From Paenibacillus kribbensis (GTDB lineage Bacteria > Bacillota > Bacilli > Paenibacillales > Paenibacillaceae): 64,000 bases of DNA. This document shows, piece by piece, positions 1 through 23,749 of this stretch (position 1 is its first letter; every line of letters starts with the position of its first letter). Where the stretch lies: contig NZ_CP020028.1 in NCBI RefSeq assembly GCF_002240415.1, positions 5,714,703 to 5,778,702 of the forward strand, written 5' to 3'. The notes beneath the pieces are model-generated. The model had not been told where the DNA came from. It ran no database searches and was given only the letters and a program-made list of their open reading frames with translations. The position numbers were made by a program, and so were the translations under genes.

Positions 1-95
1 GAATGACTTTGCCACATCAGCTGATGCGATTGGTGCTGGTGGAGCAGATTTATCGGGCGGTGAAGATTAATCGCGGTGAACCGTATCATAAGTAG
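1..95 (+). CDS. rlmH: RlmH, 23S rRNA pseudouridine-1915 N3-methyltransferase, C-terminal end only
   Basis: The window opens inside this gene; only the last 30 complete codons are visible, in the frame starting at base 3 and ending at TAG 93-95. The visible tail reads [20 protein letters not shown] and ends NRGEPYHK, which is the characteristic C-terminus of the SPOUT-class methyltransferase RlmH (OrfX in staphylococci), the enzyme that methylates pseudouridine 1915 in 23S rRNA helix 69. The rest of the protein, about 130 residues, lies upstream of the window. The family match is by recognition of the conserved C-terminus. Its importance here is positional: the last codons of rlmH are the attachment site used by SCC elements in staphylococci, and the same bases recur downstream at 7070-7098. 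Confidence 0.9.
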
Positions 96-102
96 GGCGA
101 AA
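74..102 (+). repeat. att-like direct repeat, copy 1 (rlmH 3' end)
   Basis: A 29-bp stretch spanning the last six codons, stop codon and first bases after rlmH is repeated without mismatch at 7070-7098. Its core, GAACCGTATCATAAGTAG at 78-95, fits the staphylococcal SCC att core (a GA-rich start, then TATCATAA, then GT and purines). The identity of the two copies is seen directly; the role as an attachment site is inferred from SCC biology and from the enclosed restriction-modification operon. Confidence 0.8.
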
Positions 103-535
103 ATTGCAAAGTGACAGAAATAGAAATTTGATTTGTCAATAATTCTCTTGAGTGCATTACAAGTGAATGTAACGATTTCTTAGAATATTCTATGATATAG
201 TTGATTGGGGAGTTCAAAGTTTAATTTGGTGTATTTTAATGTCGTGTCTGGACTGAGGTTGGTGCGTTCAATCAGAGATTCCGATAGCTGCCTTTTTATT
301 TTTAAGTCAGAATTTTCTGTAAGTAGATCCAAGCATTATATGACAAAATATATAAAACTTTGATTGTAAGATGTATTTTGTGATTCAAATTATTCAAGTT
401 TCATACTATATGTATGTAGCTAAAAGGAACTATCCCTTACTACTATGCAGGAAAACAATATAATTCAAGACTTCCATCGCTGACTATTGGTGTAAATAGG
501 AAAATGATGAAGAAAATCATAGGAGGAGTCACCCA
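96..535. other. Gene-free leader between rlmH and hsdM
   Basis: About 440 AT-rich bases with no convincing reading frame on either strand; the 145-residue minus-strand frame at 443-880 is an antisense shadow of hsdM. The hsd operon promoter must lie here or upstream, but I could not assign a good -35/-10 pair. A strong ribosome binding site (AGGAGGAG, ending about 10 bases before the ATG) marks the start of hsdM. Confidence 0.5.
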
Positions 536-2647
536 ATGGCGACTAAACTTGTAATCGATGCGATGTGGGATGATGCACCCATAGATGTATCCGCAGAAGT
601 GAATTTTATATGGTCTATCGCAAACAAACTGCGCGGACCCTATCAAAGTGATAAATATAAAGATGTCATCATCCCGATGACGATTATTCGCCGTTTTGAG
701 TGCGCTCTTGAACCGACCAAAAATGCGGTTGTTGCCCAGCATAAAGCAAACCCGAACTATCCGGCTAAGGCTATGTACCGTGTATCCGGCTTTCAGTTTT
801 ACAACACGAGCGAATATGACCTTGCAGAACTCATTAACGATTCCGAGAATCTTGCCGCTAACTTCAAAAGCTACATTCAAGGTTTCTCGGCAAACGTGCA
901 GGAGATTATCCTCTCCAACGACAAAGGCTTAGATTTTAAGACTCAAATAGATAAGATGGATAAGAGTAACCGGCTCTTGTCCGTCATAAAAGCGTTCTCT
1001 GAACTCGACTTGAATCCACAGACCATAGACAATGTGAAGATGGGGTATATATTCGAGGAACTAATAAAAAAGTTCTCAGAAAATGCCGAGGCAGGCGACC
1101 ACTACACAGGTAGGGACATTGTTAAGACGATGGTAAACATTCTGCTTGCGGAAGGCTGCGAAGACATCTTCGATGACGGTAAAATCATCACTATATTAGA
1201 CCAAGCCTGTGGAACGGGTGGCATGCTCACGACTGGACTAAACTTCATTAAGCGTTATAATCCGACCGCCGATGTGCGGCTGTTCGGGCAAGAAGTAAAC
1301 CCTGAATCATATGCAATGTGCCTAGCGGAAATGCTTATCAAAGGGCAAAACGCCGAAAATATTCGCTACCGTAACACGATGGAGGAAGATTGCTTCCGAG
1401 ACACTAAAATGCGGTTTGTACTTGAAAATCCTCCGTTCGGAACGCCGTGGGGCGGCAAAGATGCGCCGGAGGGCATGGAAGATGCTGTTAGGAAAGAAAG
1501 CTTAAAAGGCTTTGACGGACGTTGGGGAGCGGGATTGCCCAGCTCCGGTGATGCACAAATGCTGTTCGTACAGTCTGCTGTAAATAAGCTGGATGATAAA
1601 CTTGGACGATGTGCTATTATCCAAAACGGCAGTCCGCTGTTTTCCGGCGGCACGTCATCGGGTGAGAGTCAAATCCGCCGTTGGCTTATTGAGGAAGATT
1701 TAATAGAGGCGATTATCGCTCTGCCGACCGACCTTTTCTACAACACAGGCATTGCCACCTACGTGTGGGTGCTTTCAAAAAATAAACGCAAAGAGCGCCA
1801 AGGCAAGATTCAGCTTATAAACGCCACGGGCATTTACCATAAACTTCGCAAATCCCTCGGCGATAAGAAGAATGAAATCAGTCCCGAAGACCGCTCTGTC
1901 ATCACAAAGCTTTACGCGGATTTTGAGGAAAACGAACTTTGCAAAATATTCAAGAATGAAGAGTTTCTCTATCGTGAATATACGGTAATGCAGCCGTTGC
2001 AGCGCAGCTACGCCATAACCGCAGAGCGGATAACCGCTATGCTTTCCAAGGGTGCACTCTCATCTCTCTATGACGAGGCGAAAGTCGCCGAACTGGAAAG
2101 CGCTGAGGAACTGGGCGGTAAAGACCAAAAGAAACTTGAAGGTTACCAAGAGAAAAAGCCTTTGTATGACAGCATTGTCGCTGCGCTTGAAGCGGCTATA
2201 TCTGACAAAGTGTATCTCTCGCCGAAGGCGTTTGAGCCTGTATTGGCAGACATGTTGTTGCTTCACACCGCCGACAAGAAGCTACTGAACAAAATAGCCG
2301 ACGGGCTTTCCGTGATGGACAAAACCGCAGAGATTCAGCGCGACAAAAAAGGCGAGATTATATACGACAAGGAAACCAAGGATACCGAAATCGTCAAGTA
2401 CGAAGAGGATATCGAAACCTATATGGCGCGAGAGGTCTATCCGCATATTCCGGATGCAAAGGCGTTCTTTGAGGAAGACCTATCCAAGAAGAAGCCCGTA
2501 ATCAAGACCGGCGCGCAGATACCGTTTACCCGCTACTTCTATGAATACCAACAACCGACGCCAAGCGAGGAGCTGGAAGCCAGATTCTTGGAATTGGAGT
2601 CTGCCGTTTCTGCGCGAATTAAGAAGCTGTTTAGCGGGGTGAAATGA
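536..2647 (+). CDS. hsdM: Type I restriction-modification system, DNA methyltransferase subunit HsdM
   Basis: 703-residue N6-adenine methyltransferase subunit of a type I restriction-modification complex. The N-terminal helical HsdM domain (about residues 20-160) is followed by the catalytic N6_Mtase domain. The AdoMet-binding motif I is seen as DQACGTGG at about residues 222-229 and the catalytic motif IV as NPPFG at 298-302. The length is somewhat above the usual 500-600 residues because of a charged C-terminal region that ends in a predicted helical tail. The start is set by AGGAGG about 10 bases upstream. The stop overlaps the hsdS start by four bases, so M and S are translationally coupled. 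In the complex, two HsdM bind one HsdS to methylate the host sequence and protect it from HsdR. Codon use resembles hsdS and hsdR and differs from the core Paenibacillus genes nearby, consistent with acquisition as one unit. Confidence 0.96.
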   Translation: MATKLVIDAMWDDAPIDVSAEVNFIWSIANKLRGPYQSDKYKDVIIPMTIIRRFECALEPTKNAVVAQHKANPNYPAKAMYRVSGFQFYNTSEYDLAELINDSENLAANFKSYIQGFSANVQEIILSNDKGLDFKTQIDKMDKSNRLLSVIKAFSELDLNPQTIDNVKMGYIFEELIKKFSENAEAGDHYTGRDIVKTMVNILLAEGCEDIFDDGKIITILDQACGTGGMLTTGLNFIKRYNPTADVRLFGQEVNPESYAMCLAEMLIKGQNAENIRYRNTMEEDCFRDTKMRFVLENPPFGTPWGGKDAPEGMEDAVRKESLKGFDGRWGAGLPSSGDAQMLFVQSAVNKLDDKLGRCAIIQNGSPLFSGGTSSGESQIRRWLIEEDLIEAIIALPTDLFYNTGIATYVWVLSKNKRKERQGKIQLINATGIYHKLRKSLGDKKNEISPEDRSVITKLYADFEENELCKIFKNEEFLYREYTVMQPLQRSYAITAERITAMLSKGALSSLYDEAKVAELESAEELGGKDQKKLEGYQEKKPLYDSIVAALEAAISDKVYLSPKAFEPVLADMLLLHTADKKLLNKIADGLSVMDKTAEIQRDKKGEIIYDKETKDTEIVKYEEDIETYMAREVYPHIPDAKAFFEEDLSKKKPVIKTGAQIPFTRYFYEYQQPTPSEELEARFLELESAVSARIKKLFSGVK

Positions 2648-3906
2648 TGAGAGAGATGAAAGACAGCGGGATTGAATGGTTGGGTTCGATCCCCAAAGAT
2701 TGGCACTTAGAGAGATTGCAATGGCATTTGAATGAAGTGAATATTTCCAATAACCCCATAAAGACTGAACAGATTCTTTCTCTTACAAATAAACTCGGTG
2801 TAATACCTTATGAAGAGAAAGGCAATCAGGGCAATAAGTCAAAGGAAAACTATTCAGAGTATAAATTGGCTTACCCCAACACAATAGTTGCAAATAGCAT
2901 GAATGTAATTATTGGTTCGGTTGGAATTTCTAATTATTTTGGCTGTGTTAGCCCTGTTTATTACGTTTTTAAACCTCTAGCAAAAGAAAGCATTGAGTTT
3001 ATTAACTATGTTTTTCAAACCGTGGGGTTTCAGAAAGAATTAAGAAAATATGCAAATGGAATTCTTGAAATTCGCCTACGTGTTTCGGCAGATGGGATAC
3101 TTAAAAGACCTATACCATATCCGTCGTTAGAAGAACAAGAACGCATCTCGAATTATCTTGCGGAAAAATGTTCGGAAATTGATTCAGTAACCTTTGAAAT
3201 TCAATCTCAAATTGATTTGCTTGAACAGTATAAGCAATCATTAATTACCGAATCCATATCTAAGGGAATCGATGGACACCCTATGACAGTTTCGCATGAG
3301 GTTCCTTGGATTTCTGGTATACCTCGTGGTTGGCGAATGAGCAAAATAAAATACGAAATTATACCACTAAATAGAAATGTCGAAAATGATGACGAAGTCA
3401 TTACGTGCTTTAGAGATGGACAAGTCACACTAAGAAAAAACAGACGAGAAGACGGTTTTACGGTATCGTATACTGAAAATGGATATCAAGGTGTTAATGA
3501 GGGGGACTTGGTCATTCATGGAATGGATACTTTTGCCGGGGCTATTGGATGCTCCGACAGTCGAGGAAAATGTTCCCCTGTTGTCCATGTCTGTAAAACA
3601 AGTGGAAACAATAGATATTTTATGTACTGTTTGCGAAGCATGGCAAAAAATGATGTACTTTGGTTCTATGCTAACGGGGTTCGGGTAAGGTCAAGTGATT
3701 TTCGCAATTTCAGCAGTCTGGGGAGATTTACCATTTTAGTACCACCCCAAAAGGAACAGGATGCTATTGTGGAGTTTTTAGATAATAAATGTGAAGACAT
3801 AGATGCTGTTGTTGCATTCAAAAAATCTCAAATAAGCATTCTTGACGAGTGCAAGAAGTCCCTCATATACGAATATGTTACAGGCAAAAAGGAGGTCACA
3901 GTATGA
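2644..3906 (+). CDS. hsdS: Type I restriction-modification system, specificity subunit HsdS
   Basis: 420-residue DNA specificity subunit. It has the classical two-half build: target recognition domain 1 (about residues 10-165, opening with the family signature IEWLGSIPKDW), a first conserved helical spacer (about 166-215, EEQERISNYL onward), target recognition domain 2 (about 222-370, opening WISGIPRGW), and a second spacer (about 371-415, PPQKEQDAIV onward). The two helical spacers set the gap between the two half-sites of the bipartite target. The start ATG lies inside the hsdM stop region (ATGATGA); a second ATG directly follows and cannot be excluded. The end overlaps hsdR by four bases. 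The target sequence cannot be read from the protein; base composition in the recognition domains is more AT-rich than in hsdM and hsdR, as is usual for this exchangeable subunit. Confidence 0.95.
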   Translation: MMREMKDSGIEWLGSIPKDWHLERLQWHLNEVNISNNPIKTEQILSLTNKLGVIPYEEKGNQGNKSKENYSEYKLAYPNTIVANSMNVIIGSVGISNYFGCVSPVYYVFKPLAKESIEFINYVFQTVGFQKELRKYANGILEIRLRVSADGILKRPIPYPSLEEQERISNYLAEKCSEIDSVTFEIQSQIDLLEQYKQSLITESISKGIDGHPMTVSHEVPWISGIPRGWRMSKIKYEIIPLNRNVENDDEVITCFRDGQVTLRKNRREDGFTVSYTENGYQGVNEGDLVIHGMDTFAGAIGCSDSRGKCSPVVHVCKTSGNNRYFMYCLRSMAKNDVLWFYANGVRVRSSDFRNFSSLGRFTILVPPQKEQDAIVEFLDNKCEDIDAVVAFKKSQISILDECKKSLIYEYVTGKKEVTV

Positions 3907-6900
3907 ATATGATACTGAGCGAAAAAGAATACCAAGCATTTATAATGGAGCGGTTGCATAAAGACAACGGCTATCTTGAGCCGCGCAAAGCCACTAATTT
4001 TGACCGCCTCTTTGGCCTTGATCGTGAACTGCTTTTTCAGTTTCTTAACGATACGCAAAAGGAAATGATGGATGCTATTGCCAATATTTACAAAGATAAC
4101 TTAGAAGAAACCATCATCAACTTCATAAACACCGAAACCACAAAGAGCGGCGGCAGCTTACTTAATGTCTTAAAGAACGGCATTGAAATCTCAAATATGC
4201 CGTTGAAACTGATGTACAACAAACCCGCCACTGACTTTAATAAAGAGTTACTGGCTAACTATGAGAAAAATATCTTCTCTGTTATGGAAGAAGTCTGGGC
4301 AAGCGACTCCGAGCGCATCGACCTTGTTATCTTCCTAAATGGTCTCGCTATTATGAGTTTTGAACTCAAATGCAATATGGCAGGGCAATCCTATGGAGAT
4401 GCAATCTATCAGTATCGTGCCGAACGTAACCCCAAGACGAGACTGTTCCGCTTTAAGGCGGGGGTTCTCGTCAATTTTGCTATGGACTTGGAAGAAGTCT
4501 ATATGACCACAAAGCTGTCCGGCAGCGATACGTTCTTTTTGCCGTTTAATACTGGTAACGGTACAGGCGTGAATGCCGGCAAGGGTAACCCGCCACGCAG
4601 AGACGAAAACAGCGACTATAGCGTGTCGTATATGTGGAATGATATTCTAAAAAAGGATACCATCATCAACCTTATCACGAAGTTTATCTTTATCGAGACG
4701 AAAGAAAAGGAAGATGAACTCACTGGTAAGAAGAAGAAGAGCGAGAATGTTATCTTCCCTCGCTACCATCAGCTTGATGTTATCCGCAAGATTCTCGGTG
4801 ATGTTTACGAAAACTTAACCTCTCAGAATTATCTGATTCAGCATAGTGCAGGTTCCGGCAAAACCAATTCTATCGCTTGGCTTGCTCATAGGCTGACCTC
4901 ACTCCACGATGCAGATAACAGAATCATCTTTGATAACATCATTATTGTCACCGACCGTGTTATTGTTGACCGTCAATTACAAGCGGCGGTTATGGGGCTT
5001 GAGCATAAAAGCGGACTTATTAAGGTTATGGACGATAAGTGCAACTCCGCCGACCTTGCTAAAGCCCTTGCAAGCAATACCAAAATTATAGCTACGACAA
5101 TTCAAAAGTTCCCTTACATAGTGGATTCTGTTAAGGGACTGAAAGATAAGCATTTCGCCGTGATTATTGACGAAGCGCATTCCTCAACAGCCGGCAAAGA
5201 TATGGCGGCGGTTACAAAATCGCTCGGTGCGGGTGAGCAAGAATACGATGACATTCAGGACGAGATTGTTGACGAAATCGCTCGCAACGGCAAACAGGAA
5301 AATGTGTCTATATTTGCCTTTACCGCTACTCCTAAGCCGACTACTCTACAACTGTTCGGTAAGCTGAACTACAAAGGACAGCGTGAGGCATTCCATATTT
5401 ATTCGATGAAACAGGCAATCGAAGAAGGCTTTATTCTCGATGTACTTCAAAACTATACGACGTACAACACGTTCTACCAGATTAACAAAGAAGTCGAGGA
5501 TGACCCTCGTTGCAAAACAAACGATGCTAAAAGGCAAATCGCCCGCTTTGTCGAGCTACACGAAACGAACATCGGGCAACGCATTGAGGTTATAGTCGAG
5601 CATTTTCGCACAAGCGTAATGTCAGAACTCGGCGGTATGGCAAAGTCTATGGTGGTAACCGCCTCCCGTGAAGCAGCTGTAAAATATCGCAAGGCTCTGG
5701 AAGATTACATCACCAAGAAAGGCTATACCGACATTCACGCTCTAGTGGCTTTTTCCGGCAAGGTTAAAGTTAAAATCAAAGATGAAAACGGCAATAAAGA
5801 AGAAAAAGAGTATTCCGAAGCGGGTATGAATGGGTTTTCGGAAGATAAACTTGCAAAGCAGTTTGATAAAGATGATTACAATGTACTGCTTGTGGCGAAT
5901 AAGTACCAGACGGGTTTTGACCAACCCAAACTCTGCGCTATGTATGTTCTGAAAACACTGAAAGGTGTGACTGCGGTTCAAACACTCTCAAGGCTTAACC
6001 GTATCTGTCCGCCGTTTGAAAAGAAATCTTTTATACTGGACTTTTCCAACAGCTACGAGGATATAAAGGCGGCGTTTGCTCCGTACTTTACGACCACGTT
6101 GCTTTCCAATTCTGTAACTCCTACGGCCATCTATGATTTGGAAGCACAGATTGATGCTTATTATGTACTTGACCCCTCCGACATCGATGCCGCCAATGAT
6201 CTGCTTTACAAAAGCATCATTGATGCCAGGGATAAGAAAAAGCTGACTTTCTATTTCTCGAAAGCAAAGAAACAAATTGAAAACTACGATCTTATGGAGC
6301 AAACTCAGATAGTTTCACTTATGCGGAATTTCAATCGGTTTTATGAATTCTTAATTCAAGTGTCCTCTTTCGAAGATGTGGACTTACATAAGAAGTATAA
6401 CTTCATCACTTACTTGCTGTCGTATATCAATATTAAACACCCCGGCGGCGGTTTTGACCTTGACGGTAAGATTAAAGCGACTAACTTCGTACAGAAAAAA
6501 GCGGAGGAACACCAGACCCCTAACCTCGTGGCGCAGCCTATAGTAAAACTGCCTGTGGCAGATAAGTTCGGCTTGACCGAAGTCAAGGAGGAGCGGCTTT
6601 CGCAGATTATCGCCGAAATTAACTCACGCACAGGCAAAAACTACGATAACGATGTAGCCGTGAAAGCAATGTTACAGATTAGGGATATTTTGCTGAAATC
6701 CTCTAAACTGAAAACAACCGCAAAAAACAACACGATTAAAGACTTCGAGTTTTCTTATTTAGACAGCATTGACGATGCGCTTATTGAGGGGCTTGAGCAA
6801 AACAAGGACTTCTTCTCGTTGTTGCTGGATAACGATGAAATCAAGAAACAAATGCTTGGTATATTCACTGATGAAATATATATGAGTCTGCGTGAAGTAG

Positions 6901-6908
6901 GGGAGTAA
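3903..6908 (+). CDS. hsdR: Type I restriction-modification system, endonuclease/translocase subunit HsdR
   Basis: 1001-residue restriction subunit that reels DNA with ATP and cuts it away from the unmethylated target. The N-terminal PD-(D/E)xK nuclease is seen as D140 with E154-x-K156. The SF2 motor follows, with Walker A GSGKT at 317-321, Walker B DEAH at 423-426, motif III in AFTATPKP and motif VI in QTLSRLNR. The C-terminal helical domain binds the methylase core. The ATG at 3903 is chosen over an upstream in-frame ATG at 3849 because AAGGAGG sits about 8 bases before it and it overlaps hsdS by four bases. Length and motif order are normal for the family, so the operon looks functional. 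A terminator follows at 6998. Confidence 0.95.
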   Translation: MNMILSEKEYQAFIMERLHKDNGYLEPRKATNFDRLFGLDRELLFQFLNDTQKEMMDAIANIYKDNLEETIINFINTETTKSGGSLLNVLKNGIEISNMPLKLMYNKPATDFNKELLANYEKNIFSVMEEVWASDSERIDLVIFLNGLAIMSFELKCNMAGQSYGDAIYQYRAERNPKTRLFRFKAGVLVNFAMDLEEVYMTTKLSGSDTFFLPFNTGNGTGVNAGKGNPPRRDENSDYSVSYMWNDILKKDTIINLITKFIFIETKEKEDELTGKKKKSENVIFPRYHQLDVIRKILGDVYENLTSQNYLIQHSAGSGKTNSIAWLAHRLTSLHDADNRIIFDNIIIVTDRVIVDRQLQAAVMGLEHKSGLIKVMDDKCNSADLAKALASNTKIIATTIQKFPYIVDSVKGLKDKHFAVIIDEAHSSTAGKDMAAVTKSLGAGEQEYDDIQDEIVDEIARNGKQENVSIFAFTATPKPTTLQLFGKLNYKGQREAFHIYSMKQAIEEGFILDVLQNYTTYNTFYQINKEVEDDPRCKTNDAKRQIARFVELHETNIGQRIEVIVEHFRTSVMSELGGMAKSMVVTASREAAVKYRKALEDYITKKGYTDIHALVAFSGKVKVKIKDENGNKEEKEYSEAGMNGFSEDKLAKQFDKDDYNVLLVANKYQTGFDQPKLCAMYVLKTLKGVTAVQTLSRLNRICPPFEKKSFILDFSNSYEDIKAAFAPYFTTTLLSNSVTPTAIYDLEAQIDAYYVLDPSDIDAANDLLYKSIIDARDKKKLTFYFSKAKKQIENYDLMEQTQIVSLMRNFNRFYEFLIQVSSFEDVDLHKKYNFITYLLSYINIKHPGGGFDLDGKIKATNFVQKKAEEHQTPNLVAQPIVKLPVADKFGLTEVKEERLSQIIAEINSRTGKNYDNDVAVKAMLQIRDILLKSSKLKTTAKNNTIKDFEFSYLDSIDDALIEGLEQNKDFFSLLLDNDEIKKQMLGIFTDEIYMSLREVGE

Positions 6909-7061
6909 ATCTTTATAGACGCAGTATTACTTGCAATAGGCATAGTTATAGTCGTTCTGTTAGTGGGCGTGATTATTCGCCAAATCATCGGACGAAGAAG
7001 CAGGTCACTTAGCTACTGTGACCTGCTTTTTTTTGAAATTACCAGAAAAATTCGCCGATAG
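6909..7061 (+). other. In-frame hydrophobic reading frame directly after the hsdR stop codon
   Basis: The codons that follow the hsdR TAA stay open, in the same frame, for 50 codons. They encode a clear single membrane-spanning segment (about residues 4-25, rich in Ile, Val and Leu), then a basic stretch GRRSR. There is no ATG, GTG or TTG before the hydrophobic part. It could be reached by stop-codon readthrough, by a rare ATC or ATA start served by the AGGGGAG at the end of hsdR, or it may be the remnant of a small membrane-protein gene. The last part runs through the terminator hairpin, which argues against a well-adapted gene. Confidence 0.3.
6998..7034 (+). terminator. Rho-independent terminator of the hsd operon
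   Basis: An 11-bp perfect stem (AAGCAGGTCAC paired with GTGACCTGCTT, 9-base loop) runs into a T-rich tract. It lies about 90 bases after hsdR and 17 bases before the downstream att-like site. Confidence 0.88.
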
Positions 7062-7098
7062 ACCCGATACGGTGAACCGTATCATAAGTAGGGCGAAA
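7051..7098 (+). repeat. att-like direct repeat, copy 2 (right end of the hsd cassette)
   Basis: Positions 7070-7098 are identical to 74-102 at the rlmH 3' end. Unlike copy 1, this copy sits in non-coding DNA and is embedded in a nested palindrome: outer arms TTCGCC (7051-7056) and GGCGAA (7092-7097), inner arms GATACGG (7066-7072) and CCGTATC (7077-7083). Integration at the 3' end of a gene typically yields such a pair, one copy restoring the gene and one left at the far end of the insert. Confidence 0.75.
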
Positions 7099-7410
7099 TT
7101 TTTATAGCGTATGCTTATAGAAATATAAAGTTCCTGAATAACGTTAGGTTTAGAGGAAATATGATTTGTAGTATTGAAAGGTGATGCTAAAGGGTGGAAA
7201 GCTGAGTACACGAAAATGGTTAATGACTTTCTATTCAATCCTGATAATTTGCTTTGCTTAGGGAAGTTTTAGGAGACATACTTACTTCAGAGGCAAAATT
7301 GGCCGTCACAGTGATTTGCTGAAGCTAACTCTACAATCTGTTATTGTCTTAATGGATTTGTATCTAAATGTAGCATTCATGTTGAATAAGTTTATAAAGG
7401 GGCATGCGCT
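7099..7410. other. Gene-free stretch after the hsd cassette
   Basis: About 310 AT-rich bases with no convincing gene. A short frame at about 7173-7272 (encoding DAKGWKAEYTKMVNDF and ending at TAG) has protein-like composition but no usable start, so it may be the tail of a deleted gene. Confidence 0.35.
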
Positions 7411-11512: not shown

Positions 11513-11687
11513 GAAACTAAGCAACTAAGAAATTATCGTGAGTAGTAAATCTAATAATGTGCTACTTTAATAATGTGCTACTTTTACGATTCAAGCTGGG
11601 CGTTTGCCGTTACTAGGACAGGTGTCCCTACATAGAAATAAGCTGATGAGGAAGGCTTAAGCCATAAGCAGGGATGGTGTAAAGTAG

Positions 11688-13067
11688 ATGGCACAAAAGT
11701 TGAAAAAGAAAAGTACACGATTAACCGGAAGGATCGTAATCCCGGGCAATCCGTCATACAATACGGCCAGAATGGAGTTCAACAGGCGCTTTTCCAAATT
11801 TCCAAGGGTTATTGTTTTTTGCCAACGAACTCAGGATGTAATCAACGCAGTCAAATGGGCTCGTGAGCGGGGCATACGGCTGCGAGTGCGCAGCGGACGG
11901 CATAGCTATGAAGGCTTCTCAACTGTAAATGGCGGTATTATTATCGATGTGAGCGAGATGAATAAGGTTAAGGTTGATCGAAAAAATAGAGTGGCCATTG
12001 TACAAACGGGAAATCCACTTGCCCGTGTGTACAAAAAGCTGTGGAATAAGCGTGTGACAATTCCGGCGGGAACCGCGCCCGACGTAGGCGTAGCTGGGCT
12101 TACCCTGGGAGGAGGCATTGGACTTCTTTCCCGCAAATATGGACTTACGTGCGATAACTTGAAACAAGTGAAGATGGTCGTAGCTTCGGGACGGTATGGG
12201 GCAAAGACGATTGTGGCAAACAGGAAGAAACATTCCGATCTGTTGTGGGCATCACAAGGCGGAGGGGGAGGGAACTTTGGTGTTGCTACAGAATATACAT
12301 TTCGGGTTAGACCGATTTCATCGGTTTCTATATATAGTATTACGTGGAAATGGAGTGATCTTGAGAAGGTGTTCCCGGCTTGGCAGCGCTGGGCTCCGTC
12401 TGTCACGAACCGCTTAACCTCAACCATTGAGGTGGCTGCCAAGCAGGTGGGGACCATTGTATCTACCGGGCAATTGCTTGGCGGTGCAGAGGAGCTGCGT
12501 CGATTGATTAGACCGCTCTTGCGAACAGGTACTCCGGTGAAGGTGATGGTGAAGACAGTGCCTTTTATTGAAGCAACCAAATTTTTTGCCGAATCAGACC
12601 TGAATTTGGAACCAAAGTTTAAAATAACCGGGGCCTACGGGTTCCAACCTTTGCCGCCTGAAGGAGTACGAATTATACGCGACTTTTTATCCAAAGCACC
12701 CAACAGGCATTCTAACGTGTGGAGTCAGAGCTTGGGTGGTACAGGAAGCGCGGTGAGTCGAGTATCGCCTACTGCAACGACCTATCCTCATAGGAAGGCT
12801 GAGACAATCTACGAACTGTCAGCCCGCTGGAGAAACAACAGGGAGCAGGAGCGGAATATTCAGTGGGTGGAAAGGTTCCGTAGAGCGTTGCGTCCCTTTG
12901 TTAAAGGGGATTATGTGAATTTTCCCGATCTGCAGATTAAGAACTGGCCCAAGGCGTATTATGGCGAGAACTTTGGCAGATTGAAGCAGGTGAAACGAAA
13001 GTACGATCCTCATAATGTGTTTCGTTTTGCTCAGAGTATTCCAGTGGGTAAACAGGTCAAAAAATGA
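11688..13067 (+). CDS. FAD-binding oxidoreductase with berberine-bridge (BBE) domain
   Basis: 459-residue flavoprotein of the VAO/BBE oxidase family, which oxidises sugars or secondary metabolites with oxygen. The FAD_binding_4 domain spans about 35-175 and the BBE domain sits at the C-terminus (about 415-455, with AYYGENFGRLKQVKRKYDP). Both covalent flavin anchors of the family are visible: the His in RSGRHSYEGF (about residue 71) and the Cys in KYGLTCDNLK (about 156), suggesting bicovalent FAD. The glycine-rich TLGGGIGLLSRKYG also fits. The protein has a basic N-terminus but no signal peptide. Bacillus CotQ-type spore-coat oxidases have the same build, so a spore location is possible. The start follows GGATGGTGTAAAGTAG, a weak ribosome binding site. 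Confidence 0.88.
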   Translation: MAQKLKKKSTRLTGRIVIPGNPSYNTARMEFNRRFSKFPRVIVFCQRTQDVINAVKWARERGIRLRVRSGRHSYEGFSTVNGGIIIDVSEMNKVKVDRKNRVAIVQTGNPLARVYKKLWNKRVTIPAGTAPDVGVAGLTLGGGIGLLSRKYGLTCDNLKQVKMVVASGRYGAKTIVANRKKHSDLLWASQGGGGGNFGVATEYTFRVRPISSVSIYSITWKWSDLEKVFPAWQRWAPSVTNRLTSTIEVAAKQVGTIVSTGQLLGGAEELRRLIRPLLRTGTPVKVMVKTVPFIEATKFFAESDLNLEPKFKITGAYGFQPLPPEGVRIIRDFLSKAPNRHSNVWSQSLGGTGSAVSRVSPTATTYPHRKAETIYELSARWRNNREQERNIQWVERFRRALRPFVKGDYVNFPDLQIKNWPKAYYGENFGRLKQVKRKYDPHNVFRFAQSIPVGKQVKK

Positions 13068-13095
13068 CAATACGCACACCAGATCGAATTAAAAC

Positions 13096-13120
13096 AAGGA
13101 GCTGACGGCGGCAGCTCCTT
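13096..13120 (+). terminator. Hairpin after the FAD oxidase gene
   Basis: AAGGAGCTG pairs perfectly with CAGCTCCTT (7-base loop), 28 bases after the stop, followed by TTAGCCATTTC. It stands eight bases before the third att-like site, the same arrangement as at 6998 and 23679. Confidence 0.65.
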
Positions 13121-13127
13121 TAGCCAT

Positions 13128-13174
13128 TTCGCTGATAGTGACGTTAAGCTGAACTGTATCCTAAATAAGGACAA
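13128..13174 (+). repeat. Diverged att-like site, copy 3
   Basis: TTCGCTGATAG (13128-13138) followed by GAACTGTATCCTAAATAAGG (13151-13170) aligns over its length with the site at 7051-7098 and that at 23705. The core differs from the rlmH copy at a few positions (TATCCTAA for TATCATAA). It is in the same orientation as the others. It probably marks the end of an older insertion. Confidence 0.55.
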
Positions 13175-13316
13175 GATTTGAAAGCTTTGAAGGAGAAATG
13201 GAAGGAGATTCAACTCAAGCAGGACATAGATTGATGAATTCCTTTGAGAAGCAGGCGGGGACCATTTCGGGGTTCGTTTTCTCATTAAAGGAGAATATTA
13301 AAGGAAGACAGGAGAA

Positions 13317-13339
13317 AGGGGCTGGTTGTGCCAGCCCCT
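13317..13339 (-). terminator. Hairpin after the DUF4062 gene
   Basis: AGGGGCTGG pairs perfectly with CCAGCCCCT (5-base loop), immediately after the stop of the minus-strand gene ending at 13343. The tract after it on the minus strand is TTTCTCC, a moderate U-run. Confidence 0.65.
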
Positions 13340-13342
13340 CTT

Positions 13343-13909
13343 TCATTTCTTTTTCTCCAACTCCGCCTTTAATCTTGCATTCTCTTCCAACAGCTTTTGA
13401 ACGTCCGGGACAACCTTGCCGGAAACCCAGCCATACAAATCGTCTCTTGCTGCATACTCCGGCAATTGATCACGAAGTACCATTTTAATGTGCCGTACAT
13501 CTTCAACATAATAGATCGGGATTTGTTCCATGACCGATTGCTTAAACTCTTGAAACTCCTGATAGTATTCAATTGCTGCGAAGTCGTATGGCTTTTGTCT
13601 TAATGCTTCGTCTGTGACAACAAAAGCAAATCTAGGCTTGCCCGCTTCTCCGGCATACTCATATTCCCAATGCGTATAGCTCTTGGATTCATCAGGAAGC
13701 GTTAAGCCATAGAATCCTCCGAGAATCAGGATATATACATCGGACTCGTCAATCCATCTCTTCCTAATTTTCATTGGACTTTCCTTGAAAGATTGCTCGA
13801 TTCCAGCAGGGATATGACCGGCTTGAAGTACGGCTTCAACAGCGGTATGTCTTTCCTCAATAAGATCGTAGTAAGTAGACGATATGTAAATTTGTAATTT
13901 TTTTCTCAT
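13343..13909 (-). CDS. DUF4062 domain protein with C-terminal coiled coil
   Basis: 188-residue cytoplasmic protein. The first ~90 residues are a DUF4062 domain, recognised by LQIYISSTYYDLIEERHTAVEAVL, AGHIPAGIEQ and the YILILGGFYG strand; this Rossmann-like fold is distantly related to TIR domains. The last ~25 residues (VQKLLEENARLKAELEKKK) form a coiled coil, suggesting self-association. DUF4062 is often the N-terminal sensor or effector of much larger STAND or other multidomain proteins, some with roles in phage defence; here it stands alone and is complete, ending in the coiled coil. The ATG follows AGGTGG. There is no partner gene on the same strand. A defence role is an inference from family and context (accessory island), not from any visible catalytic residue. 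Confidence 0.8.
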   Translation of the reverse strand: MRKKLQIYISSTYYDLIEERHTAVEAVLQAGHIPAGIEQSFKESPMKIRKRWIDESDVYILILGGFYGLTLPDESKSYTHWEYEYAGEAGKPRFAFVVTDEALRQKPYDFAAIEYYQEFQEFKQSVMEQIPIYYVEDVRHIKMVLRDQLPEYAARDDLYGWVSGKVVPDVQKLLEENARLKAELEKKK

Positions 13910-16466: not shown

Positions 16467-19400
16467 TTGAAAAGAAAACGCAGTATGGGCAAAACTGTGC
16501 TATCTTTCTGCCTAGCAGTTTTGCTTGTCTTGCAGACGGTGACGTTCTCTGCTGTCGCATTTGCGGGGAGCGCGCCAGACGGTTTCGGGACGGTGGACGA
16601 ACCGTCATCGGTATCTGAGGCAGTGTACGCTGCGTCGACCGAACCGTCGTCAGTACCTGAGGCGGTGTACGCTATGTCGGCCAGTCTCGCAGCGGTGGCG
16701 GCAGATCCGGCTGACAAAACGGCGGTGCTCATGGGGGCGAATTCGTCCTTTCCGCTGGAAGTCATACAGGATGGGAATGTCTTAAAGACGGGTGACACCA
16801 TTCACGGCAGAAAACCCTTCTCCCTTAAGTCGACCGGCATCAAGGTTCCGGTGAAGGGGGACGCCACCGACCCGAACACGGTGGATGACAACACGGTCAT
16901 TTTGTATGGCGATTATGTGATGCTGGACAAAGCGACCTACTTTTCGGAAGTGATTCTGCCGACTGCCACCATGACGCTGACGGAAAAGTCGGGTTTCAAA
17001 ATCGGAACCGCCCACTTCTCCGAAGCGGGCGTCAAGGTTGTGTTTGACGGCGAAGAACGTTTTTTCAATGGCCAGGGCAAGAACGTTACCTTCGGCTTTG
17101 AATCCACCGCAAAGGCGGATGTGTCGAACATAAACTATGGCGATAAAAAGCCGATTGGCATTTTCGGGTCGAGCTACATGCTCGAAAACCCCGAGATCAC
17201 GCCTGCGTACAGCATCACAAAGAGATCCAACAGCAACGCTTCCGAAAATGGCTGGATCGATCAGGCGGCTTTTGTAGAGGGGGCAATCGAGTGGCAGTTG
17301 GAAATTGCCGCCACGGATATGTTTGACCCTGCCATCCCGCAGCCGCTGGACAGACTGAAGCTGTATGACGCGCTCGATCCGGCCCAGGTGGGCACCTATG
17401 TGGAGGGTTCACTCAAAGTCAACGGCAGCGCGGCGACACCGGACAGCGGCACCGCGAACGCGCTGGCCTACACCTTCCCCGCGGGTTTCGGTGACAAGGC
17501 GATCGTCACCTTCAAGACGTGGATTCCCAAGGCGAAATATTACTATGAGTATAACAGCGGTAATAATGGGTATCAGACCATCACCAATACCGCAGAGCTG
17601 AGGGACGCGTCGGACAGTAAACTGCATTCTTCGGATCCGTGGCGCGTTACTTTCAAGCCCGACTGGATTCAGAAGAGCGGTACACTGGACAAGCGGTCGA
17701 GCTCCACAGATCCACGCACCATTACATGGACAATTGATGTCAACAAGAATTACAGCAAGCAGGGTCTGAAAGACTTCACGATCACCGATGCCCTGCCGAT
17801 CGGACTTACCTGGAAATCAGCCGCATGGCAGTCGTGGGACAGTGTCAATAAGACATGGTCAGCGACAACAACGCCGATTACCCCCGACGCAAATAATGTG
17901 TATTCTTTCGGTGAGGTAAACGGCCCGATTCGGCTGGTCATTGTGTCCGAAGTTACGGGCAGTACTACCGGCTTCACCAACAAGGCCACCGCCCAGTGGA
18001 AGCTGGATGTCAATACTGTGCAGAACAATGACCAAGCTAGCGTATGGGACACCGCCGTTATCACCATTGGCGCCCATACTTTGACAAAGAGCGTAGGTAC
18101 CGGTAATACCCTTGGTTTGGGCATATTGCCGTGGAAGGTTACCCTCACACCTCAGGAGGCCCTGCCGGACGGTGCGGTGTACGATCTGCTGGTGTATGGG
18201 GATGCGAACTCAATCGACTTCGCCAAGGTTACTGCCAGCCCGGCGCTTGACTCTGGAATTCTGAATCAGTTGAAGGGAAACTATAGGGAGAATTACTACC
18301 AGCGTTTTCAGTCCGGTTCCTTTCAGTCAAGTGACGGCTTAACGCATAAGGTATACACCCTTTCACAGGACGGGAAGCCTGTCGCGGACTTGCTTCAGGT
18401 CACCGGATACAATACCGATAAGCCCGCTTCCTTCATATATAATTCCTTGATGACACAGTGGGAGCACTTCGCGGGCAATAAGAGCACAGATCAGTTTAAT
18501 CGGGCGTCCCTGTTTGAAGGTACAAATCGAACAATTGATTCAACTCGGCCTTCTAACCGGGTCAACAGCGGCATGCTGGCCAAAGAGATGCTCTATGCGT
18601 CCAAACCCAATGGAACAAGCGTTATTCCTAACGATGTCAGAAGCTACATCCGAGACGATGCTAACCAAGCATATACACTGGCAGCCTATGATCAGGTGAC
18701 CAAGACGGTGACCTTCCGGTTTTCGGTCAATATGAACGGCATGAAGACCGAGGAGATGGCTAAGGATGGCGGCAATCACGTTGCCAGCGACATCAAACTC
18801 GTCGATACCCTGCCCGAGGGCTGGGAGTTTGTGCCCTATTCGGAGGGGCAGAGTTTTGCGATTTACAAAGGAAACCGGGCAGACTATGGAGCGACTGTTA
18901 GCGCTGCGTCGCTTATTCCCGACCCAAGTGGTCTCGTGAGCTTCTCCGCCGCAGGGAACATAGGTACCTTTTCCTTTACCAAGCTGGAAAGTCCCTATGT
19001 CGTTCTGGTCAAAGCAAGACCTAGCGAGGCGGCCCTCCGTCAATACTTTGAAACCGGCGGAGCAAAGCATGAGATGACGAACAACGCCGAGATGAAAATC
19101 ACATGGGGGGATGAGCCTACCACGGTTGCAGCCAGCCGCAAGGTCATTGTTCCGATGCAGACACTGGGCAAATCAGTGACGAAGCCGAACCCCGGCGTGC
19201 TGGAGTGGACGGTGAATTACACCCCGCCCTTCGAGGTGAAGGACGGCGTCTATCTGCAGGATACCCTTGGCGAGGGGCTGGCGCTGCGTAAGGACGAGAA
19301 TGGGAACCTTTCGCTGCGGCGCCCTGACATGGCGGTGTACCGCGCCAAGCTGACCCCGAGCGGTGAACTGACAAAGGACGGCGACGCGCTGAACCTGTAC

Positions 19401-22400
19401 GACCCGAACAGTGAGGTCAAGGTGGAGGCCGTCACAGAAGGCGGCGCAACCCGGCTGATCTTCCGCATGGAAAATCCGAATCAGCTCTACCAGCTGGTAT
19501 ATCAGACGGAGATCACCGCAGTGCCTAGCGGCGGAAAGGCGGGCAACGAGATTAAGCTGATGGGCGATGACACCCTGAAGAACATTGGCGCCAAAAGCGA
19601 ACACGCGGTTGATAACAGTGACGTAGGCGGCAGCGCGGAGACCCAGGGCAAGCTGGATCTGCTCAAGGTCGACCCTGCAGGCAAGCCGCTCAGTGGTGTA
19701 GTATTCACGTTGTATGAGCCCGACGGCGTAACTGAGGTCACTGGTGGAACTACGGGTGCGGACGGCAAGCTTAGCCTGTTTGTCAAAGCGGGGCTTTACG
19801 TGCTCAAACAAACCTATATTGACCCGATCACCTATCTTCCGACCACGACGGTGTATCAGGTGCGTGTAGCTTCAACTCCCTGGAACCCCATCTGGGTGGA
19901 CGGGGTGGAGGTAACCAGCGCCAAACCGCTGGTTGTGCCAACCCCTGTGTGGGTGCCCGGCGATCTGAAGCTGGACACGGCGATAGAGGGGAAAGGGGCA
20001 GACCCGAACAAGGACTTTGAATATACGGTTACCTTCAGCAACGGCAAGTCTTATGCCTATTCCGGCTCAGTAAGCGGGACCATGGCCAGCGGCGGAACCG
20101 TTAAGCTGAAAGGCGGCCAGGCCATTACCATCAAGAATATCCCGGATGGCATCACCTACACCATCGTCCAGAAGGATTACACGGGCGAAGGCTACGCTAC
20201 CAATCCGGAGAGTCTGACGCGTACCGGCAGCATTGTGGCGAAGGAAACTGCCGAAGCGAAGTTCGTCAATGCCAAGTACCTTCCCGGCAAGCTGACGATC
20301 GGGAAGACGGTCGCGGGCAACCGCGGGGACAAGAACAAGGCGTTCGAGTTCACTGTCACTTTCGGTGGCCCGGGTGCGGGTAAAACGTATACGTATACGA
20401 CATCGGGCGGAGCGACGGGAACTGTCGGGTCCGGCGGCATGATCTCCCTCAAGCATGGGGAAACCGCCGTCATCGCTGGGATTCCCAAGGATACAACCTA
20501 CACCGTCACCGAGGCCGATTATATGAACGAAGGCTACACGACAACTTGGCCGGACCGGCAAACGACCGGCACCATTGCCGAGGAGGGCGAACATAAAGCC
20601 GAGGTCGTCAACACGAGGATGGTGTACGGCGGCCTGCTGATCGGGGAGACGGTGGAAGGCACCGGGGCGGACAAGAATAAAGAATTTGAGTTTACTGTCC
20701 AATTCCCGGATGCCGCCACAGGTAAGGCGTACGCCTACACGAAGTCGGACGGCACGCAGGGAACGATCAAGTCCGACGATAAGATTACTCTCAAGCATGG
20801 GGAAACCATTGCTATTGAAGGTATTCCGAGCGGTGACAGCTATATCGTCACCGAGACCGATTATACGGCCGAGGATTACACCACCGATCCGGCGAATCGG
20901 ACGTATAGCGGCACGATCGTGGAGAAGAAGATTGCCGAAGCCCGCTTCGTCAATGCGAAGTATCTCACGGGCCAACTGACGCTGACGGCAGATCCTGCGG
21001 TCGTTCCCGGCAACGGCACGACGCCTTCGCAGTTGACGGCAACGTTGACTGATTATGAAGGGAAGCCGGTTGCGAACCAGGATGTCGTCTTCACACTGCC
21101 TGATCAATCGGAAGTAACAGCCAAGACCGATGCGCAAGGAAAAGCGGTCATCCCTTATACACCGCCAAAGCTGAACACCACAACGCCCGAGGAGCATCAC
21201 ATCACGGCCAAGGTGGACAGTCTGACGGAAGGGAAATTGACCGCTGACACGAAGGTAACCGCCGTACCGGCGGCTGTCACCGGAGTGCTGCGCGACAATA
21301 CAACGGGAGAAGTGATTCCGAATGCGACCGTTGTCATCACCGATGAAAAGAATGGCGAGAAGCACGAGATCACGACCGATGCCAATGGCGCGTACTTCCA
21401 CCCTGTGGAGTATGGTGGCGACTATACGATTAGCTTTACGAAACAGATCAAAGTGAATGGTACTGACGAGTCGATCACTTTCACGCAAAAAGCGGAAGTT
21501 GACGGCGAGGTGAAGGGCGGCGAGCTGGTTCCAGCGCACATTACGGCTGTAGGCGTCGTGCTTCTGAAGCAGCCTGCAGGGCAGTCTTCGCTGCTGAACG
21601 GCGAACTCGCCGGGAAGATGCGCATTTATTTACGGGATGCGAACGGCCAATATGTTGTGGATGAGAACGGCGCTCTGAAAGCATTCAACTTGCAACCGAA
21701 CGGGGCATTCTCTGTGGATGGCTTATCCGCGAAGAACTACAAAATGGAAGTGCGTTACGAAGTTGCGCCGGGCAAAGAACTGACGATCATTCGGGATGCG
21801 GAGCTGGACGTGAAGGCGAACGGGGAATTGAATATTTCTCAGGAGCTTGTTGACCCGTATGGCATCATTACGGATGCAACGACCGGTACAACGATTGAAG
21901 GTGCCGAAGTGACGCTGTACTATGCTGATACACCGGAGAACAAGGCGAAAGGCATCGTGCCAGGCATGAAAGTAACGTTGCCTATGATTCCAGGCTTTGC
22001 GCCGAACGATAACGTCAGCCCAAGTCAGAACAGCGACGCAAACGGCGCATATGCGTATATGGTGTTCCCGGACACGGATTACTATTTGGTTGTAACGAAA
22101 GCCGGGTATGAGACGCATACAAGCCCAACTATCTCGGTCGGAAGCGACATCGTACCCTACAATATACAGTTGAAGCCGGTAAGTTCCGGCGGCAATGGCG
22201 GCGGCGGTGGCGGTGGCGGTGGCGGAACTGGATCCGGCAACAGCAATAGCGGAACCGACAACGGCAACAACGGAGCTGGCAACGTCGGCAATGGAACCGG
22301 CAATGTCAACAACGGAACTGGCAACGTCGGCAATGGAACCAGCGATGTCAACAACGGAGCTGGTAACGTCGACAGCGGAACCGGCGATGTCAACAACGGA

Positions 22401-22718
22401 GCTGGTAACGTCGGTAACGGAACCAGTGACGTCAACAACGGAGCTGGTAACGTCGACAACGGAACCGGCAACGTCAACAACGGAGCTGGTAACGTCGACA
22501 ACGGAACCGGCGACGTCAACAACGGAGCTGGCAACGTCGACAATGGAACCGACGAAGGCGACAACCGAGTCGGCAACGTCGACAACGAGCTGGACAATGT
22601 TCCGAAAACAGGAGATAGCAGCGCACCGCCAATGTTCTATATGGCTTTGGCGCTGATGTCCTTGATTACGATCGGGTTCTGTTTACTCAGTAGCAAGAAG
22701 AAAAAACACATCCAGTAA
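16467..22718 (+). CDS. Giant wall-anchored surface adhesin (isopeptide/Cna-B type) with VPKTG sorting signal
   Basis: 2083-residue secreted protein. Order of parts: signal peptide (about 1-34, ending in AFAGS); a short acidic Pro/Ser repeat; isopeptide D2-type domains (about 200-900); a SpaA/Cna-B-like domain (about 1068-1165, LDLLKVDPAGKPLSGVVFTL); three homologous ~105-residue repeats (about 1168-1500, each opening like GDLKLDTAIEGKGADPNKDF and ending in AEAKFVNAKY); a Big_1-type Ig domain; a carboxypeptidase-regulatory-like domain (GVLRDNTTGEVIPNATVVIT); a Gly run; a heptapeptide repeat; then sorting motif VPKTGD at about 2045, a hydrophobic helix and the tail SSKKKKHIQ. The TTG start is chosen because AAGGGGA precedes it by eight bases; ATG 16485 is the alternative. 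The class B sortase 20 bases downstream is its probable anchoring enzyme. Role: attachment to a surface or matrix, inferred. Confidence 0.9.
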   Translation: MKRKRSMGKTVLSFCLAVLLVLQTVTFSAVAFAGSAPDGFGTVDEPSSVSEAVYAASTEPSSVPEAVYAMSASLAAVAADPADKTAVLMGANSSFPLEVIQDGNVLKTGDTIHGRKPFSLKSTGIKVPVKGDATDPNTVDDNTVILYGDYVMLDKATYFSEVILPTATMTLTEKSGFKIGTAHFSEAGVKVVFDGEERFFNGQGKNVTFGFESTAKADVSNINYGDKKPIGIFGSSYMLENPEITPAYSITKRSNSNASENGWIDQAAFVEGAIEWQLEIAATDMFDPAIPQPLDRLKLYDALDPAQVGTYVEGSLKVNGSAATPDSGTANALAYTFPAGFGDKAIVTFKTWIPKAKYYYEYNSGNNGYQTITNTAELRDASDSKLHSSDPWRVTFKPDWIQKSGTLDKRSSSTDPRTITWTIDVNKNYSKQGLKDFTITDALPIGLTWKSAAWQSWDSVNKTWSATTTPITPDANNVYSFGEVNGPIRLVIVSEVTGSTTGFTNKATAQWKLDVNTVQNNDQASVWDTAVITIGAHTLTKSVGTGNTLGLGILPWKVTLTPQEALPDGAVYDLLVYGDANSIDFAKVTASPALDSGILNQLKGNYRENYYQRFQSGSFQSSDGLTHKVYTLSQDGKPVADLLQVTGYNTDKPASFIYNSLMTQWEHFAGNKSTDQFNRASLFEGTNRTIDSTRPSNRVNSGMLAKEMLYASKPNGTSVIPNDVRSYIRDDANQAYTLAAYDQVTKTVTFRFSVNMNGMKTEEMAKDGGNHVASDIKLVDTLPEGWEFVPYSEGQSFAIYKGNRADYGATVSAASLIPDPSGLVSFSAAGNIGTFSFTKLESPYVVLVKARPSEAALRQYFETGGAKHEMTNNAEMKITWGDEPTTVAASRKVIVPMQTLGKSVTKPNPGVLEWTVNYTPPFEVKDGVYLQDTLGEGLALRKDENGNLSLRRPDMAVYRAKLTPSGELTKDGDALNLYDPNSEVKVEAVTEGGATRLIFRMENPNQLYQLVYQTEITAVPSGGKAGNEIKLMGDDTLKNIGAKSEHAVDNSDVGGSAETQGKLDLLKVDPAGKPLSGVVFTLYEPDGVTEVTGGTTGADGKLSLFVKAGLYVLKQTYIDPITYLPTTTVYQVRVASTPWNPIWVDGVEVTSAKPLVVPTPVWVPGDLKLDTAIEGKGADPNKDFEYTVTFSNGKSYAYSGSVSGTMASGGTVKLKGGQAITIKNIPDGITYTIVQKDYTGEGYATNPESLTRTGSIVAKETAEAKFVNAKYLPGKLTIGKTVAGNRGDKNKAFEFTVTFGGPGAGKTYTYTTSGGATGTVGSGGMISLKHGETAVIAGIPKDTTYTVTEADYMNEGYTTTWPDRQTTGTIAEEGEHKAEVVNTRMVYGGLLIGETVEGTGADKNKEFEFTVQFPDAATGKAYAYTKSDGTQGTIKSDDKITLKHGETIAIEGIPSGDSYIVTETDYTAEDYTTDPANRTYSGTIVEKKIAEARFVNAKYLTGQLTLTADPAVVPGNGTTPSQLTATLTDYEGKPVANQDVVFTLPDQSEVTAKTDAQGKAVIPYTPPKLNTTTPEEHHITAKVDSLTEGKLTADTKVTAVPAAVTGVLRDNTTGEVIPNATVVITDEKNGEKHEITTDANGAYFHPVEYGGDYTISFTKQIKVNGTDESITFTQKAEVDGEVKGGELVPAHITAVGVVLLKQPAGQSSLLNGELAGKMRIYLRDANGQYVVDENGALKAFNLQPNGAFSVDGLSAKNYKMEVRYEVAPGKELTIIRDAELDVKANGELNISQELVDPYGIITDATTGTTIEGAEVTLYYADTPENKAKGIVPGMKVTLPMIPGFAPNDNVSPSQNSDANGAYAYMVFPDTDYYLVVTKAGYETHTSPTISVGSDIVPYNIQLKPVSSGGNGGGGGGGGGGTGSGNSNSGTDNGNNGAGNVGNGTGNVNNGTGNVGNGTSDVNNGAGNVDSGTGDVNNGAGNVGNGTSDVNNGAGNVDNGTGNVNNGAGNVDNGTGDVNNGAGNVDNGTDEGDNRVGNVDNELDNVPKTGDSSAPPMFYMALALMSLITIGFCLLSSKKKKHIQ
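22270..22560 (+). repeat. Heptapeptide-coding tandem repeat in the adhesin stalk
   Basis: About fourteen units of 21 bases, encoding (N/D)V(N/D/G)NG(A/T)(G/S), for example NVNNGTG and DVNNGAG. The region links the last folded domain to the sorting signal, as the wall-spanning stalk of such proteins. Near-identical units would allow length variation by slippage or recombination. Confidence 0.85.
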
Positions 22719-23704: not shown

Positions 23705-23749
23705 TTCGCTGATAGACCCGTTAAACTGAGCTGTATCATAAGTGAAGGC
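23705..23749 (+). repeat. Diverged att-like site, copy 4
   Basis: TTCGCTGATAGACCCG (23705-23720) matches the left part of copy 2 (7051) except one base, and GAGCTGTATCATAAGTGA (23728-23745) keeps the TATCATAAGT core. Same orientation as rlmH. It lies five bases after a hairpin, as do the other downstream copies. Confidence 0.6.

Follow-up and report, generated by a model that had tools for sequence, protein, structure and literature searches.

The segment between positions 84 and 7080 of the window, a stretch of 64,000 nucleotides of the Paenibacillus kribbensis genome (contig NZ_CP020028.1, positions 5,714,703 to 5,778,702), carries a type I restriction-modification (R-M) operon downstream of rlmH. 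We suggest, with a probability of about 0.82, that this segment is a recombinase-less cassette of the staphylococcal cassette chromosome (SCC) type, which entered rlmH at its 3' end through the action in trans of a Ccr-like large serine recombinase (LSR). Two characteristics of SCC are found in it, namely the insertion at the 3' end of rlmH and the direct repeats with a TATCATAA core.

The original prediction had placed an exact 29-mer at both ends of the segment, and CGGTGAACCGTATCATAAGTAGGGCGAAA indeed occurs at 74-102 and again at 7070-7098. When the whole genome, a single contig of 5.78 Mb, was scanned with up to three mismatches allowed, only these two copies were obtained and the reversed pattern gave none; by arithmetic, the chance of an exact 29-bp repeat in 64 kb is about 1e-8. 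The left copy covers the last rlmH codons and the stop, and rlmH is complete at the left of the cassette. Between the two 29-mers there is no gene besides hsdM, hsdS and hsdR, followed by a likely terminator, also foreseen, which is seen by eye as a hairpin and a T-run. The three reading frames are all open, form one operon, score above the Pfam cut-offs and are recognised by PADLOC, and HsdM, HsdS and HsdR bear the domains expected of a type I R-M system, whose predicted role by homology is the restriction of foreign DNA. The G+C content of the cassette is 42.4%, whereas the DNA on the left has 48.7% and that on the right 46.1%. Its features, including the attachment sites (att), are the following:

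1..95, + strand: 3' end of rlmH by sequence (RlmH ending in RGEPYHK and stop), the left boundary; stop at 93-95, the full gene being L004:14319-14798
74..102, + strand: attL, the left att copy; exact 29-mer with core TATCATAAGTA at 84-94 and left end type TAGGGCGAAA
536..2647, + strand: hsdM, type I methyltransferase, 703 aa (Pfam N6_Mtase 191 bits, HsdM_N 80.7 bits; PADLOC)
2644..3906, + strand: hsdS, specificity subunit, 420 aa (Pfam Methylase_S 35.9 bits; PADLOC)
3903..6908, + strand: hsdR, restriction subunit/translocase, 1001 aa (Pfam HSDR_N, SWI2_SNF2, ResIII; PADLOC)
~6999..7034, + strand: hairpin and T-run, likely the operon terminator (by eye)
7051..7072, + strand: degenerate inverted repeat of the left end (TTCGCC at 7051, GATACGG at 7066), 12/22 matches, dyad centre near 7074
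7070..7098, + strand: attR, the right att copy; exact 29-mer with core TATCATAAGTA at 7080-7090
right of the cassette: flank, sequence ...TATCATAAGTAGGGCGAAATTTTTATAGCG

SCC-like elements at rlmH have been published for Staphylococcus, Enterococcus and one Paenibacillus (PMC10061031, PMC6222049). The remark in the original prediction that no description was known for Paenibacillus is thus superseded by the SCC-like rlmH composite already reported for P. pinistramenti, which has several rlmH-end repeats and two LSRs (PMC10061031). Bebel et al. 2023 also describe Bacillota elements with recombinase, helicase and Pol-SSB genes, most of them downstream of rlmH and most carrying conflict genes such as R-M (PMC10061031). 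Compared by description, the P. pinistramenti island resembles ours in the host genus, the rlmH site and the presence of more than one rlmH-end repeat, but it has a helicase, Pol-SSB and two LSRs, whereas the cassette in the window consists of cargo only. For the Enterococcus cassette chromosome (ECC, with ccrAB-Ent) the published description gives an att of about 50 bp and an attR with a dyad and the TATCATAA core (PMC6222049); the rlmH target, the TATCATAA att and the variable cargo are shared with it, and so is the attR dyad at the better-preserved sites of the set, that of the window being degenerate. With SCC, including ccr-less pseudo-SCC and composite SCC, the likeness extends to the rlmH 3' end, the direct repeats, their TATCATAA core and the occurrence of tandem composites, and also to inverted repeats of the ends, which in the window are degenerate (PMC10061031, PMC6222049). 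This comparison was made by published description. Unlike SCC, the window cassette has no ccr gene on the element or near rlmH and shows GGGCGAAA as its post-core sequence, and the units of the kind found here are short, mostly recombinase-free and placed in rows across many species.

The distribution of the rlmH-end motif was studied across the genus in one genome for each species, 75 in total with that of the window, over up to 20 kb downstream of rlmH (1.46 Mb in total; contig ends make the region shorter in G059, G004, G056, G044 and G046), and the site counts refer to this distance only. The motif TAYCAYAARTRR was found 97 times on the rlmH strand versus 13 times on the opposite one, and the reversed motif gave 15 + 5 = 20 matches in the same sequence. 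Counting both strands, 49 of the 75 genomes have one or more extra copies. After a GAACCG filter on the preceding bases, which dropped five of the 97 sites, there remained 92 sites, which lie in 48 genomes and define as many intervals, with a median of 3.3 kb and a range from 98 bp to 19.2 kb. The repeat has 90 matches in the genus: 34 are rlmH ends, 42 lie within 60 kb downstream of rlmH (36 on the rlmH strand) and 14 elsewhere. A dispersed repeat without relation to rlmH, which had been named as a finding that would speak against a cassette, is therefore rejected, 76 of the 90 matches being at rlmH ends or within 60 kb downstream.

In a sample of the family, a stricter pattern gave matches in 154 of 295 genomes, from 14 of 19 genera, and none when reversed; such a match may be the rlmH end alone, and by hand count about 60 genomes have at least two. 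Ten multi-copy genomes from three other genera were checked and nine have clusters downstream of rlmH, the largest, in G316, comprising about ten copies over 89 kb with the rlmH end included. Rather than the single cassette originally proposed, the hsd operon is one unit of a wider array phenomenon.

Evidence for exchange at the exact site came from an all-against-all alignment of the rlmH regions. Homology starts at the att in both genomes in 24 of 3396 pairs and ends at it in 67 of the 3396, many of the latter being rlmH-tail duplications in G053 and G041 and thus less telling. The flank that directly follows rlmH in G050, an empty site, follows a 3.9-kb cassette in G001 and a 5.2-kb cassette in G039 with 91.6-93.6% identity over 5-8 kb, so that cassettes arrive or leave at the exact site. 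The proposed comparison of rlmH 3' regions across Paenibacillus thus provided an empty site for other cassettes, but none for the hsd cassette. With one genome per species, gain and loss at the strain level is beyond the scope of this comparison.

The ends of the units were compared as well. An inverted copy of the left end, matching in at least 14/22 bases, precedes the right att at 23 of the 97 sites, always at a single fixed distance, versus 10 of 1899 control stretches; the 23 include close relatives and hence are not all independent. Left and right ends match each other better in true pairs (mean 6.30) than in permuted ones (5.14, maximum 5.86 in 400), as calculated on the 92 intervals with one of less than 150 bp dropped and the element of genome G015 added. 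Different natural end types occur in the set (GGGCGAAA, ACGGCAAG and AGCACAAAG), and nine further genomes, among them two pairs of close relatives, have the right-end type of the window at one site each. In G057/G058 (L139/L141) and in G060 (L091) the right ends are near-perfect att palindromes (20-21/22), and these are perhaps the least decayed cassette ends. The codons of RlmH were also examined: in 14 close genomes the diversity is 0.49 for Y157, 0.34 for H158 and 0.49 for K159, versus a mean of 0.19 for a 2-fold codon. Nine other 2-fold RlmH codons reach 0.42, and codons 153-154 vary too in 15 close genomes; as a map of the crossover these values are suggestive only.

Our recombinase survey was directed at LSRs (PF07508). 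Full-length LSRs within about 5.5 kb of rlmH are present in 5 of the 75 genomes (G006, G015, G055, G062 and G065). The rlmH-side LSR of G008 is N-terminally short, its frame starting about 34 residues later than the others; the missing stretch presumably includes the catalytic serine of these enzymes. LSR relics, some of them short matches, lie near rlmH in six more genomes (G027, G037, G040, G049, G063 and G071). Ten of the 92 intervals contain an LSR gene or relic and 82 contain none detectable with the G015 proteins; relics of rlmH-side LSRs lie inside five cassettes. With the CcrB model the main LSRs of G015, G055, G006, G065 and G008 score 365-431 bits (that of G062 was left out of this scoring), versus 75-191 for ten chosen LSRs from elsewhere, and the second LSR of G015 scores 287 bits with CcrC and 250 with CcrB. 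By these scores, the Ccr models fit the rlmH-side LSRs of the congeners better than they fit LSRs elsewhere in the genus.

The element of G015 measures 20.1 kb and has two tandem LSRs, a RadC-like gene and a DUF927+HTH_56 helicase; this helicase gives 210 of 700 bits with the SCC Cch1 model and also matches the solved helicase 5dgk. The element is bounded by TAGGGCGAAATTTTAG on one side and by TAGGGCGAATTTAAGGG, in inverted form, on the other, and the left end of the window cassette is of the same type. One G015 LSR shares 47% identity, over 386 residues, with a recombinase found in three plasmid records from staphylococci. The element also carries a gene for a SmaI-type restriction enzyme (L085:3060-3836, PF17411) beside an ORF that looks methylase-like by eye. 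In another genus, G307 has two LSRs 2-4 kb downstream of rlmH, being the only one of the ten checked multi-copy genomes with such genes.

Several observations weigh against our interpretation, and those on the cassette itself concern its ends and its flank. The inverted repeat of the window has a score (12/22) that is reached by about 9% of the control stretches, the match between its two ends is moderate, and its right end is of the kind for which TGACGGCGAAAAAT left ends are the better partners. Moreover, its own empty site was found neither in the alignment of rlmH regions nor in a genus-wide DNA search, because nothing in the genus aligns with the flank 7105-7243; further to the right, a match to G022 begins at 7244 and one to G013 at 7349. 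The left end TAGGGCGAAA and the right end CTATCGGCGAA are only partly complementary (score 6), which favours a composite made from the ends of two cassettes, fused by deletion or by homologous recombination between att copies and no longer a functional unit. Tandem att copies do provide the homology for such an event, but the two 29-mers agree in every base with no sign of decay, and the only genes between them are those of the intact operon. We regard this origin, which is compatible with an SCC-type cassette, as rather doubtful.

At the level of the genus, 26 of the 75 genomes have no extra motif copy and 14 matches lie away from rlmH, 6 of them still on its contig and 8 on a different one. 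In the tenth of the checked multi-copy genomes, the att cluster (G201:C1:459096-468136) is not at rlmH and may be a secondary site or a moved array. In addition, the array sites of G053 and G041 are longer rlmH-tail duplications, of about 200 and 90 bp respectively. A duplication of this kind would be the source of the repeat if the operon had entered by homologous or illegitimate recombination and no dedicated recombinase took part. Other right copies, however, share little with rlmH beyond the att and many are preceded by element-type sequence, and with the strand bias of 97 versus 13 this makes duplication a very improbable source of the repeat.

The enzyme is the other point at which the evidence falls short of an SCC. 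The rlmH-side LSRs of the congeners miss the NCBI Ccr cut-offs (900 bits for CcrB and CcrC, 700 for CcrA), the best reaching 431 of 900. No Ccr-like gene lies near rlmH in the window genome and no LSR between 84 and 7080, the latter as the original prediction had stated. The search of this genome for a Ccr-type LSR, which it had proposed, yielded a single LSR about 1 Mb from rlmH with 180 bits against CcrB. We do not favour this LSR (G000:C1:4686140) as the cassette enzyme, given that score and the presence of LSRs of similar length and score away from rlmH in several congeners. Furthermore, PF07508 is missing entirely from 11 of the 49 array genomes. This last observation, the several distinct end types and the fact that tyrosine recombinases lay outside the search would suit integration of the operon at rlmH by another site-specific recombinase, of the tyrosine type or an LSR not yet characterised, the likeness to SCC being convergence. 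On the other hand, the rlmH-side LSRs are more like one another and CcrB than LSRs elsewhere, five cassettes contain relics of these rlmH-side LSRs, and the dyad and TATCATAA core agree with the ECC and SCC att sites as set out in PMC6222049, and we find convergence improbable.

What stands of the SCC-like reading is accordingly the insertion at the rlmH 3' end, the SCC-like anatomy and a route in trans as the likeliest one; an empty site of its own, a nearby Ccr-like gene and congener LSRs close to the Ccr cut-offs are what it lacks. A Cch-type helicase domain occurs in 5 of the 75 genomes and stands beside rlmH only in G015; since, moreover, no LSR is near rlmH here and 11 of 49 array genomes are without PF07508, movement of the window cassette in trans by visiting elements would be the best reading. 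The recombinase would have come with a transient SCC-like element and would bring the end of rlmH together with the cassette junction and its dyad symmetry, crossover probably taking place inside GAACCGTAYCAYAAR. The cassette would thus supply the last rlmH codons, RlmH staying intact, and could leave only while such an enzyme was present.

A side observation concerns the elements of G006 (L144), G037 (L152) and G062 (L100), whose presence at rlmH turns the RlmH end from EPYHK to EPYRL or EPYRF. A diverged RlmH homologue, 32-37% identical, lies near their far end (in G006 it has 133 aa and ends in PYHK). Judging from these sequences, the elements seem to alter and replace the host RlmH.

The hsd cassette also appears to have an older neighbour, of which this feature remains:

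13125..13175, + strand: right end and att, both decayed, of an older cassette adjacent to the hsd unit; core TATCCTAAATAA at 13157, att-like site at ~13147-13175

This older cassette ends with ORF 11688-13067, which we take to be FAD-dependent oxidoreductase-like from its sequence. The stretch 11582-13179 of the window (rlmH-based 11967-13564) is 96% identical to G007, where an intact att (14335) closes it; G024 has the stretch too, and divergence begins at the same place as the decayed att. Because the mutated att at 13157 matches the G007 att and the G024 junction, the hsd cassette is, on this comparison, placed as the rlmH-proximal unit of an array. Another att-like word, GAGCTGTATCATAAGTGAAGGC, at 23734 is possibly an older site, its frequency being about that of chance for 64 kb by the control rate. 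In between (16467-22718) lies an ORF for a surface-protein-like product of 2083 aa with an end that resembles a sorting signal by eye, and a homologue lies within 20 kb of rlmH in 13 other genomes.

Concerning the origin of the operon, HsdM and HsdR score below the stricter cut-offs of NCBIfam and therefore represent a divergent branch. The best relatives of HsdM (77-83% over nearly the full length) are mainly from Clostridia, and one assembly each of Sporolactobacillus, Erysipelotrichaceae and Oxalobacter is also among them. HsdR has relatives with E up to 1e-100 in 14 of the 294 other sampled genomes of the family, at only 36-43%. No rlmH was present in the stretches fetched around 38 loci with HsdM relatives, which cover close relatives only and are short in many cases. 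From the G+C content of the cassette, the mainly clostridial relatives of HsdM and the only distant HsdR relatives in the family, the operon looks like a recent foreign import.

Integron arrays hold small cassettes in rows at one site and their enzyme is encoded elsewhere. The likeness of the rlmH arrays to them is one of working and not of membership, as the candidate recombinases here are serine-type and that of the integron is tyrosine-type. On balance we lean, by a small measure, towards a family-wide system of rlmH cassette arrays in Paenibacillaceae that works in an integron-like manner, with Ccr-type serine recombinases provided in trans by occasional SCC-like elements and several end types each matched to its own recombinase. 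In such a system the final codons of rlmH would come from ordinary cassettes, and species would exchange small units with genes for R-M, transporters, oxidoreductases and regulators; these names for the array cargo, which was clustered only, are presumed from sequence. Arrays of recombinase-free rlmH cassettes in Paenibacillaceae are the subject of no literature title among the matches listed, and what looks new is the scale, with short units standing in tandem (in 82 of the 92 intervals no Ccr-like sequence could be detected) and with several end types.

As most units are recombinase-free, the movement in trans of ccr-less SCC cassettes becomes directly testable, and both candidate ends and candidate enzymes for this question are available from one genus. 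The finding places the methicillin-resistance-type site of staphylococci within a wider gene-trading system of environmental Bacillota.
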